64,000 nt of DNA. Origin: Nitrososphaerota archaeon. GTDB lineage: Archaea > Thermoproteota > Nitrososphaeria > Nitrososphaerales > JACPRH01. The position numbers and the translations under genes were made by a program. The stretch lies in the NCBI GenBank assembly GCA_023379805.1, contig JAMCPI010000003.1, positions 62,001 to 126,000 on the forward strand. Reading direction: 5' to 3'. A model generated the notes under the pieces. That model ran no database searches, was not told the DNA's origin, and was given only the letters and a program-made list of their open reading frames with translations. Every line of letters starts with the position of its first letter. Positions within the stretch are counted from its first letter, which is position 1. Shown here piece by piece: positions 16,458 through 47,691 of the stretch.

Positions 16458-17018
16458 GCTTCCGGTCTAAGCCACCCCAAATTAATAGATACCGCATCAA
16501 CCGAATCCAAAATGGACTACGCACCTAATCCGACGCTACAGCCAATCTACCAGCAACAAGCGAACAAATAATGCACATCTTGCAGCTTAGAACAGCATCC
16601 ACAGCAACTCCGCCAAGCTGGCCAATGAAAACACAGGGAAGTAGTCTTGCAACCTGAAGCAATGCTTTTGGCAAGCATTGCAAACCTTAAGATCCGATCC
16701 AAGCGGAGCCATTAGAACCACAATAATATTTCTATACGTATTTCATCAGTATATAGAGCCCTCTCCTAGTATTTTTAGCACGCGTGCGTGCACAAAGAGG
16801 AATAATGCTATTTTATGAAAAAAGCGAAGCAGAACTATATTTGCATTGTAACCTGTTTCCCAATGCAAGTACTCAAAGCAGACTGGTGACTCCAAGCACA
16901 GGTTGCAGGAGAGGGTGCGCAGCTTCGTTTCCACCGTTACCGCAATGCTTAATCATCTATCTCCCATGCGGCTTGTTGGTGAACTAACTAGCTAGTCTCT
17001 AGATTAGCTCATCTGGTG
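16458..17018. other. 561-base gap without a supported gene
   Basis: No convincing gene. A perfect 8-bp hairpin (gcaatgct 16659-16666 with agcattgc 16674-16681, 7-base loop) and AT-rich patches (16725-16760) are the only structures seen. The frames at 16746-16934 (minus) and 16784-16987 (plus) overlap each other and resemble nothing. Confidence 0.5.
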
Positions 17019-45633: not shown

Positions 45634-46337
45634 GCACCTCTAGCTGCTCCACTTCAACCAAGCAACAATAATTATTAATACATTTATCTTCAATATAACC
45701 TAATTTAACCTCTACGTTCGTGCGCCGGCGCCACTGCTGCCATTGGCCGAGGGAGGGCTCTATATGCTAATGAAATGAGCGTAAGAATCCAGCTGACGTT
45801 CTAAGCAGATCGCACGGATCGGATCTTCGGTTTTGCAGTGTTTACTGGAAACGTTTGTTCTGCATGCAAGATTATCCCCCAATGCTTTCTTCTGCTAATG
45901 TGGCCGAACTGCTGTAAGGAGTGTTCTAAGCTGCAAGGCTTGTATTGATTGTTAGCTTGTCGCTGGTAGAATGGCTGTAGCATCGGCGCATTTAGTTAAG
46001 TTAGTTGATGTATAGTTACAGTTTGGGCGCCTAGAGAACCGCCATAACTATCCTGCTCCTTATCCTCCATTAAACAAAAACCAATACAGGTTTCAAATAG
46101 GCTCGTTATTGGTGCGGGGTGGGATTGCAATACCATTTTACTAGTAACGCTGCGATGCGGAAGAAATGTTTTCACTACATATCAAGTTCGCTGGTTCTTT
46201 CTTGAGCTCAATTAGGTTCAAATCTATAATCTACCTAACTTGGATAACCATACTTTCTTACATCAAACATGCATAGGTGTAAACAGGATACCTGAATAAT
46301 AACCAAAGTGACTGACTTCTATACGCCAGATAGGCTC
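45634..46337. other. About 700-base gene-poor region with a possible tRNA 3'-end fragment
   Basis: No supported gene. At 46110-46126 the bases tggtgcggggtgggatt match the minus-strand 3' end of the tRNA-Leu at 47544 (tggtgcggggggtgggatt) except for two missing G. A Cys-rich remnant frame (CSACK...CCKEC) is visible around 45830-45950 on the plus strand. AT-rich promoter-like bases for the methyltransferase lie at 45663-45700. Confidence 0.45.
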
Positions 46338-46406
46338 GGTTCTGTCCAATTATCTGGACATTGCATAGTCCGTTTACGCAGCTATGTCCAGAGGATTTTA
46401 CAGAAC
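46338..46406 (+). repeat. 69-bp palindromic element, copy 1 (inverted with copy 2)
   Basis: Exactly matches the reverse complement of 47466-47534 over 69 bases. The element itself is an imperfect palindrome: ggttctgt (46338-46345) with acagaacc (46400-46407) and tctggacat (46353-46361) with atgtccaga (46384-46392). Together with copy 2 it brackets the CDF gene. Confidence 0.9.
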
Positions 46407-46448
46407 CGGCATGTTCTTGCTTAGCCGGCATTCATAGACTGACTGGAG

Positions 46449-47399
46449 TCAGCTATCTTCATGTGGTTCGGCAGATATTATGAGGCTCTCCAATCCTTCT
46501 ACCTTCGTTCTTACTGTTTCCTGAATCTCTTCCTTTAACTTGGTCAGTTCGGCCACGGTTAGTTCTGGGTTGACTGTTATTATCATTTCACCGACTATGT
46601 AGGGCCCACTTTGTCTGAGTCTAACGGTTTTCAGGCGTACACCGTTAACTTTCTCGACCATTTGTTTTATCACAGCAACTACTTCAGGGTTATGCCAAGC
46701 ATCCAGAAGTATGAGCGTGGCTTCCTTGAGTATAGTTATTGACACTGTCGCAATTAATACGGCTACAATCATGGCTCCGATCGAGTCCATCTGCGTGAAA
46801 CCTAGAAAAGAGCCGAGGATGCTAAAGAACACTACAAAGGATGCTGAGCCATCCTTGATCGCGTTTGTCGCCTCAGCTTTGAGGGAGAGAAGGTTAGATT
46901 TGATAGCTATGCTTCTCTTGATGAACGCCAAGATAAGTGAAACGGTTCCAGATATGAGTGCGGTTGCCAGCGCTATCGCAGGTGATTCTATCGCTGTCGG
47001 TGAGAAGAACCTGAGATATGCATTGTAGAATGTTAGACCGCTCACCATTGCAAGTATTATGGCGATCAGAAATGCGGAAAGGTTCTCTGCACGGTAATAG
47101 CCGTAGTGGAATAGGCTATCGGCTTTCTTACGGCTTATCCGAATACCCAACCAAACTATTGTGGTTACGCTTGCGTCAGACATTCCGTCGATGCCGTCCG
47201 CCAACAATGAGAGGCTTCCAGAGATCTGCGCTATTATGAGTTCAGCAAAGCCTATGCTGCCGACGATGACTGCGGATAATAATGCAATTTTTTCCGCCTT
47301 CTTAACGTATGGGTTATGCTGCTGATGCTGTTGATGTTCGGACAATTTCCTTTCTTTATCTTCCTCATGTCGTGAAAATGGCCACGGAACGAGAAACAA
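46449..47399 (-). CDS. CDF family cation efflux protein
   Basis: 316 residues. A His/Gln-rich N terminus (EHQQHQQHNP) precedes the six-helix CDF core: LLADGIDGMSDASVT in helix 2, LFHYGYYRAENL in the loop, KAEATNAIKDGSASF in helix 5. The C-terminal dimer domain (about 225-310) is a single module. Exports divalent metals; the His-rich leader suggests metal capture. It differs from the htpX-linked CDF (single C-terminal module). The gene lies inside a unit bounded by exact 69-bp inverted repeats and ends 42 bases from one arm. Start is ATG; an in-frame earlier start is absent. Confidence 0.9.
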   Translation of the reverse strand: MFLVPWPFSRHEEDKERKLSEHQQHQQHNPYVKKAEKIALLSAVIVGSIGFAELIIAQISGSLSLLADGIDGMSDASVTTIVWLGIRISRKKADSLFHYGYYRAENLSAFLIAIILAMVSGLTFYNAYLRFFSPTAIESPAIALATALISGTVSLILAFIKRSIAIKSNLLSLKAEATNAIKDGSASFVVFFSILGSFLGFTQMDSIGAMIVAVLIATVSITILKEATLILLDAWHNPEVVAVIKQMVEKVNGVRLKTVRLRQSGPYIVGEMIITVNPELTVAELTKLKEEIQETVRTKVEGLESLIISAEPHEDS

Positions 47400-47465
47400 A
47401 TCTTTCTCTCAATTTCATGCGGCCTTTCCGGCCGCATACAAGAAATATAAAGTATTACATGGCCA

Positions 47466-47534
47466 GTTCTGTAAAATCCTCTGGACATAGCTGCGTAAAC
47501 GGACTATGCAATGTCCAGATAATTGGACAGAACC
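47466..47534 (-). repeat. 69-bp palindromic element, copy 2 (inverted with copy 1)
   Basis: Reverse complement of 46338-46406 with no mismatch. Ends 9 bases before the encoded CCA of tRNA-Leu (47544). Copies this long and identical imply recent duplication, gene conversion or a mobile origin. No coding capacity. Confidence 0.9.
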
Positions 47535-47543
47535 CTATTAAAA

Positions 47544-47691
47544 TGGTGCGGGGGGTGGGATTCGAACCCACGAACCCCTAAGAGACGGGATGTCTCATCG
47601 GCCATTTTTCTATCAGCCTCAGGTTGAGGCGATCTTAAGTCCCGCGCTTCCACGGCTTTTGCCCTCTTTGGCCAGTCTCGGCAACCCCCGC
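47544..47691 (-). tRNA. tRNA-Leu (TAA) with two introns
   Basis: Acceptor GCGGGGG with CCCCCGC, discriminator A, encoded CCA (47544-47546). T-arm gtggg-ttcgaat-cccac; long variable arm of about 14 bases, typical of Leu. Anticodon stem cggga/tcccg with loop ctTAAga (anticodon complement 47635-47637). A 42-base insert (47592-47633) follows position 37 and contains a gcctca/tgaggc stem. About 16 extra bases (47647-47662) lie between D-stem ggc and anticodon-stem; without them the D-arm reads gcc...ggc. The first intron is canonical, the second not; the second's splice points are uncertain. Confidence 0.85.

Follow-up and report, generated by a model that had tools for sequence, protein, structure and literature searches.

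A cation-efflux gene between two inverted copies of a probable, very short IS6-like MITE in a Nitrososphaerota archaeon

Analysis of a 64,000-nt stretch from the genome of a groundwater archaeon of the Nitrososphaerota (the window; positions 62001-126000 of contig C3 in its own assembly, G000, which comprises 17 contigs and 2.34 Mb) revealed a CDF gene enclosed by two inverted palindromes. The defensible claim is that on both sides of this gene lie inverted copies of a very short MITE which belongs to a thaumarchaeal, IS6-like family of transposons, and it is likewise defensible that members of this family mark rearrangement junctions between sister genomes. We further consider it probable that the two palindromes constitute a non-autonomous 70-bp IS6-like MITE pair, which holds the CDF gene together with its own promoter as a passenger between its ends.

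A repeat search in the window detected an exact inverted repeat of 69/69 identical nt (46338-46406 on the plus strand, 47466-47534 on the minus strand), in agreement with the two perfect copies in opposite orientation described in the initial annotation. Base 70 is a C/T mismatch, and extension to 73 nt gives 99% identity. The copies are also self-palindromic, as had been noted: each is an imperfect palindrome with 28-nt arms (82% matched) and a 16-nt loop, with a predicted RNA fold of -31.5 kcal/mol (z = -5.5). No further match to the 69-mer at up to 3 mismatches was found in the window (expected by chance 0.00), and chance is ruled out as the source of the inverted repeat. The palindromes span 1197 bp with the CDF gene as the sole ORF of note inside, confirming the single cation-efflux gene in a unit of about 1.2 kb. 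The coordinates of these features and of related elements elsewhere in the genome are given in Table 1.

Table 1. Features at the CDF locus in the window, full-length IS6-like elements and further palindrome copies in G000
Feature	Location	Strand	Details
Putative MITE copy a, IS6-like subtype A	46338..46407	+	LE GGTTCTGTCCAATTATCTGGACAT / RE (rc) GGTTCTGTAAAATCCTCTGGACAT; 69/69 vs copy b
Putative MITE copy b, inverted	47465..47534	-	outer end 9 bp from 3' end of tRNA gene
CDF gene (putative passenger)	46449..47399	-	316 aa; Cation_efflux + ZT_dimer
CDF block	46435..47471	-	87% nt homologous to G001:C49:11119-12140; borders in window are the two putative MITEs
TATA-like stretch upstream of CDF gene	47443..47457	-	TACTTTATATTTC; alignment with sister species, by eye
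Intron-containing tRNA-Leu(UAA) gene	47544..47691	-	by eye and synteny
Degenerate tRNA-3'-end-like remnant	46110..46146	+	GGTGCGGGGTGGGATT...; G001 has it too, upstream of the syntenic tRNA-Leu gene
IS6-like element	C12:438457-440946		2490 bp; duplication CTTCCTTG
IS6-like element	C14:80786-84412		3627 bp; duplication CCGTATTT
IS6-like element	C16:76018-80504 (L083 2019-6505)		4487 bp; TIR 24/24; duplication CTTCACCA
IS6-like element	C15 ~74047-77164		3118 bp; TIR 24/24; 9-bp duplication TGTGAAGCA
Palindrome copies, covariance model	C4:16756, C4:14831, C12:335079, C14:80351, C12:437372, C12:382218, C5:48271, C15:31783		
Related subtype, covariance model	C12:244573, C17:155274, C7:149149		
Further family member	C10:37678		

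Target duplications of 8 bp were found neither at copy a or copy b nor around the whole unit, nor swapped between the copies, and the flanks of 46338-47534 (ATAGGCTC / CTATTAAA) show no composite-level duplication. Of the hallmarks of a composite transposon, the unit therefore has the gene bracketed by two copies and lacks the target duplication at unit level. Since flanking repeats are lost in intramolecular transposition (PMC7986276), the missing duplication fits our model but is no proof of it. Two other origins were rejected: a fresh adjacent inversion, because the flanks ATAGGCTC|GGCATGTT and TTTAATAG|GGCCATGT show no exchange, and integron attC sites (RYYYAAC...GTTRRRY direct repeats after each gene), because the palindromes in the window have GGTTCTG...CAGAAC as their ends and lie in opposite orientation. 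An unrelated dispersed repeat of ~150-270 bp lies at 45717-45986 and occurs again in the window at 16530-16763, with additional copies at other loci; it has at least 30 matches in the sister species G001 at 67-78% identity and a predicted fold of -72.7 kcal/mol, and no Rfam match was found.

Pfam searches with the CDF product revealed a Cation_efflux domain (PF01545, E = 1.3e-33) and a ZT_dimer domain (PF16916, E = 1.1e-8), the combination of cation-efflux and cytoplasmic ZT dimerisation domains that characterises the CDF family. The protein reaches 175.8 bits with the CDF superfamily model TIGR01297 (cut-off 82.4) and scores under all equivalog cut-offs. Like FieF, MntE and MamM it lies above the TIGR01297 cut-off, and it can be aligned to FieF along its length, including the DxxxD pair in TM2; unlike FieF, it has an Asn at the TM5 His position (DD-ND site), which presumably points to Mn2+ as the substrate. 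Membership of the family would by itself suggest metal tolerance or resistance. The TATA-like stretch TACTTTATATTTC is kept in the sister species and located between the putative MITEs, and it is probably a promoter that travels with the CDF gene.

The neighbouring tRNA-Leu(UAA) gene was missed by ARAGORN and by the Rfam tRNA model. It is syntenic in G001 and G002, where neither a palindrome of this type nor a CDF gene lies beside it. The tRNA-3'-end-like remnant on the other side of the unit marks a rearrangement-prone, tRNA-proximal site. Similar degenerate remnants were observed near MITEs or IS elements at L026 (near 335030) and L027 (10990-11040), which suggests old integrations at tRNA genes.

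A search of the window's own assembly detected diverged palindromes on further contigs; together with the members listed by a covariance model built from five copies, the family has ~14 copies in G000, and the sister species G001 has nine, four of them identical. The G000 copies are intergenic and 65-99% identical, with an asymmetric loop, and the family alignment showed conserved ends (GGTTCTGTYC.ATTATC) and a loop that is oriented in subtype A. A few copies each were found in G003, G020 and G030. When 300 genomes were sampled from the class, the family was detected at E <= 1e-4 in these three, G000 and G001 only. The initial annotation had proposed a search for more copies of the 69-mer in the genome and its relatives, and had named a repeat found nowhere else and in unchanged orientation as the result that would speak against its idea; diverged copies are present in both. 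Like MITEs, the 70-bp palindromes are short, ORF-less, bounded by terminal inverted repeats and dispersed in several copies. Target duplications and empty sites were detected for the four identical G001 copies, and most solo family copies have no target duplication.

The IS6-type transposase domain PF13610 has 13 matches in G000. Scanning for termini flanked by target duplications revealed four full-length IS6-like elements of 2.5-4.5 kb with 8-9-bp duplications, three perfect ones of 8 bp and one of 9 bp. Their ends begin with GGTTCTG or GGTTTTG (one end of the C12 element with GGTATTG), in line with the GG start, the G at position 7 and the 8-bp duplication of IS6. The residues D112, D171 and E211 are invariant among the four transposases, all of which exceed the PF13610 cut-off. 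With the NCBI IS6 equivalog NF033587 (cut-off 125 bits) the C14 transposase scores 140.4; the other three, at 99-117, lie below the cut-off, though it is their best-scoring model. The C16 and C15 transposases also match SWIM. The C16 element, with its perfect long TIRs, carries an N6/N4 DNA methylase gene divided between two frames and is thus an IS6-type element with passenger genes. Four further transposase matches (C12:60917, C12:460349, C12:313944 and C16:58812) form two pairs of identical score with one in-frame TAG each, which points to recent duplication of a dead copy or to a recoded codon.

The ends of the C12 element (GGTTCTGCTTCATAATCGGGTGAT / GGTATTGCTTCATCTTCGGGTGAT) match the two halves of a subtype-B palindrome. 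We therefore interpret the palindromes as putative ultra-short MITEs that consist of little beyond the two ends of IS6-like (PF13610) elements. Searches of the PF13610 loci, and of viral contigs for the exact pattern, yielded no full-length element whose ends are of subtype A. The match to transposon termini also bears on a proposal of the initial annotation that the palindromes are regulatory RNA copies kept identical by conversion. A regulatory RNA or DNA element of the transporter (a bidirectional terminator, a 3' stabiliser or a metal-responsive switch) duplicated on each side would account for the stable hairpins (z = -5.5) and for their position directly 3' of the tRNA and of the CDF gene. 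However, there is no Rfam match at E <= 1, family members adjoin unrelated genes and are not tied to one gene type, the CDF gene of the sister species has no palindromes, and the identical copies show 8-bp target duplications in addition to their IS6-like ends. We regard a regulatory role as very unlikely, and this proposal was not upheld.

In the sister species G001 the flanks of the unit (the methyltransferase on one side, the tRNA and beyond on the other) still lie close together on C63 and enclose different DNA. The CDF block is found at another locus, on C49, and its 87% nt identity to window positions 46435-47471 is the same as that of the flanks. In G001 the block lies inside 50-bp TIRs (score 52, against at most 33 in 500 shuffles), which also enclose a piece of the C-terminus of an IS6-type transposase, and the locus appears to be a 1387-bp decayed IS6-like transposon carrying the exporter. 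Palindromes of the window type are absent there. As the ends differ from the MITEs in the window and a target duplication is missing, the two brackets are not simply orthologous; the CAGAAC at the junction of CDF block and element in both species may be a coincidence, since in G001 it is possibly part of the transposase remnant. Absences in G001 are soft, as this genome is ~87% complete. In each of the two species of the genus, IS6-type ends thus appear to flank the exporter, and the locus differs between them.

In G017, which belongs to another family, the CDF gene lies beside TrkH and NhaP homologues, and the window has NhaP-TrkA-TrkH nearby in a looser arrangement, so the gene may have been moved in either of the sister species; no IS6-type ends were seen around the CDF genes of G017 and G031. 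The CDF locus of G001 is flanked by quinoprotein-like secreted proteins, to which a large paralogous array in G000 (C17:9300-67000 and elsewhere) is related, with dozens of DNA-level matches.

The four identical copies in G001 make two pairs with reciprocally swapped 8-bp target duplications. In element orientation, the flanks read TTCCTGAG|GACGAGAC and GACGAGAC|TTCCTGAG in the first pair and CGACGCGC|ACCAGTTC and ACCAGTTC|CGACGCGC in the second. The inverted copies of the first pair surround 3070 bp (3.07 kb), and this segment is inverted relative to G000:C2 with the MITEs as breakpoints; with the inversion undone, one border aligns uninterrupted to G000, and at the other the outer flank alone aligns. 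The second pair splits a site whose undivided form is found at G000:C10:111432-111439, with 152 bp aligned across it. Intramolecular IS6 transposition in trans leaves a segment inverted between two oppositely oriented copies, and each copy then has the original flank on one side and a target flank on the other (PMC7986276); the G001 pairs appear to be a textbook product of such intramolecular replicative transposition. This footprint, pairs in inverted orientation whose duplications are swapped, suggests a replicative (cointegrate) mode. The same junctions would arise if two copies had inserted independently and then recombined; we favour the replicative route because all four identical copies take part in exchanges. 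The label k141 of the G001 contig suggests that the assembly word exceeded the 70-bp repeat in length, which speaks against a plain swap during assembly.

The initial annotation had also considered an invertible segment. This holds for the G001 pair, which brackets an inverted segment, as an evolutionary rearrangement, but no sign of a reversible switch was found. A switch that flips the CDF segment between the palindromes and turns expression on or off could draw on the identical inverted repeats around the gene and on the similar pair in G001. The probable promoter, however, lies within the repeats and would flip along with the gene, none of the ORFs nearby was recognised as an invertase, and the duplicated target sites at the G001 inversion point to transposition rather than site-specific inversion; such a switch therefore seems to us scarcely credible.

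A second inverted pair in G000 (C4:14831 on the minus and C4:16756 on the plus strand; 69/70 identical, 99%) surrounds glycosyltransferase-like and methyltransferase genes. On its left, the threonine synthase gene has a syntenic counterpart in G001, and neither the interior of the pair nor the region beyond has a DNA match in G001. All remaining copies are at most 77% identical to the window pair or the C4 pair. These data bear on the account that two MITEs inserted independently beside a CDF gene that never moved, their identity being kept by gene conversion or inverted-repeat recombination. No target duplications join the copies in the window, and a close pair is not very rare among ~16 copies per genome (P = 0.19 for at least one pair within 2 kb at random placement). 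Inverted repeats 1 kb apart convert readily, and the 100% identity of the window pair could result from gene conversion. Against this account, two pairs within 2 kb arose in ~2% of simulations with 16 copies placed at random (P ~0.02), both pairs in G000 are inverted and 99-100% identical, and the CDF block, whose borders in the window fall at the MITEs, lies elsewhere in G001, again between IS6-type ends. Independent insertion is thus rather unlikely in our view.

In the preferred reading of a MITE pair with a passenger gene, a transposase acting in trans would recognise the ends (GGTTCTG and the box nnCAATTATCNGGACAT), cut them and join them to a target, of which 8 bp would be duplicated. 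A replicative and often intramolecular event would then give rise to two near-identical inverted copies with the intervening DNA flipped; alternatively, neighbouring DNA could be deleted or relocated. In the window, the MITE pair would have moved the CDF gene in this way. Judged by the comparison with the sister species, such pairs mark flipped or moved pieces of the chromosome, and in the window the transporter gene was apparently taken along. The earlier idea of a MITE-type composite was largely right: the dispersed family, the IS6-like ends with their duplication length and the CDF gene at different loci agree with it, whereas a duplication at unit level is missing.

More tentatively, IS6-like transposons and 70-bp MITEs might form a gene-carrying system, with the inverted pair as its minimal trans-mobilised unit and the MITEs driving replicative inversions, a view we put forward as a possibility on the doubtful side. 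If true, gene-carrying MITE pairs would shuttle stress and cell-surface genes (the CDF exporter; the glycosyltransferase and methyltransferase genes), and, as functional composite transposons, would rank among the smallest and be the first in Thaumarchaeota for which passenger genes are described. The two sister genomes offer natural evidence that a 70-bp element makes moves which duplicate 8 bp and form inversions, and make the minimum size of an archaeal transposon and the transfer of adaptive genes by such elements in groundwater archaea testable.

The elements described here resemble the IS6/IS26 family in their DDE_Tnp_IS240 domain (PF13610, above cut-off), the GGTTCTG start of their TIRs and the 8-bp duplications, and resemble IS6 pseudo-compound transposons in the outcome of intramolecular moves, inverted copies between which the duplications are split (PMC7986276). 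Unlike IS6 elements, they are 2.5-4.5 kb long and have extra genes and N-terminal Zn-ribbon/SWIM domains; functional IS6 compound transposons contain direct copies, whereas the copies in the window are inverted. The IS6 records include one member with passenger genes and two MITEs of 227 and 336 bp (PMC7986276). It has been doubted that archaeal elements are members of the IS6 family, and experimental data on archaeal IS6 elements were not found (PMC6807381). With thaumarchaeal insertion sequences our elements share the DDE-type transposase; the IS-like elements described there comprise one or two genes, MITEs are not mentioned and passenger-carrying composite transposons were not detected in archaea (PMC6563490). 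Going by these papers, a putative MITE/IS6 pseudo-composite like that in the window is unusual for archaea. In bacteria, MITEs bracket and mobilise genes, as in IR148/mcr-5, E622/bla and the integron-mobilising MITEs (PMC10969869). The unit in the window differs from these in the shorter length of its copies (70 bp, against a few hundred bp), its archaeal host, its IS6-like ends and a mobility that is inferred, and it shares with them the two short, transposase-less copies around a resistance-type gene, whose movement would need a transposase in trans.
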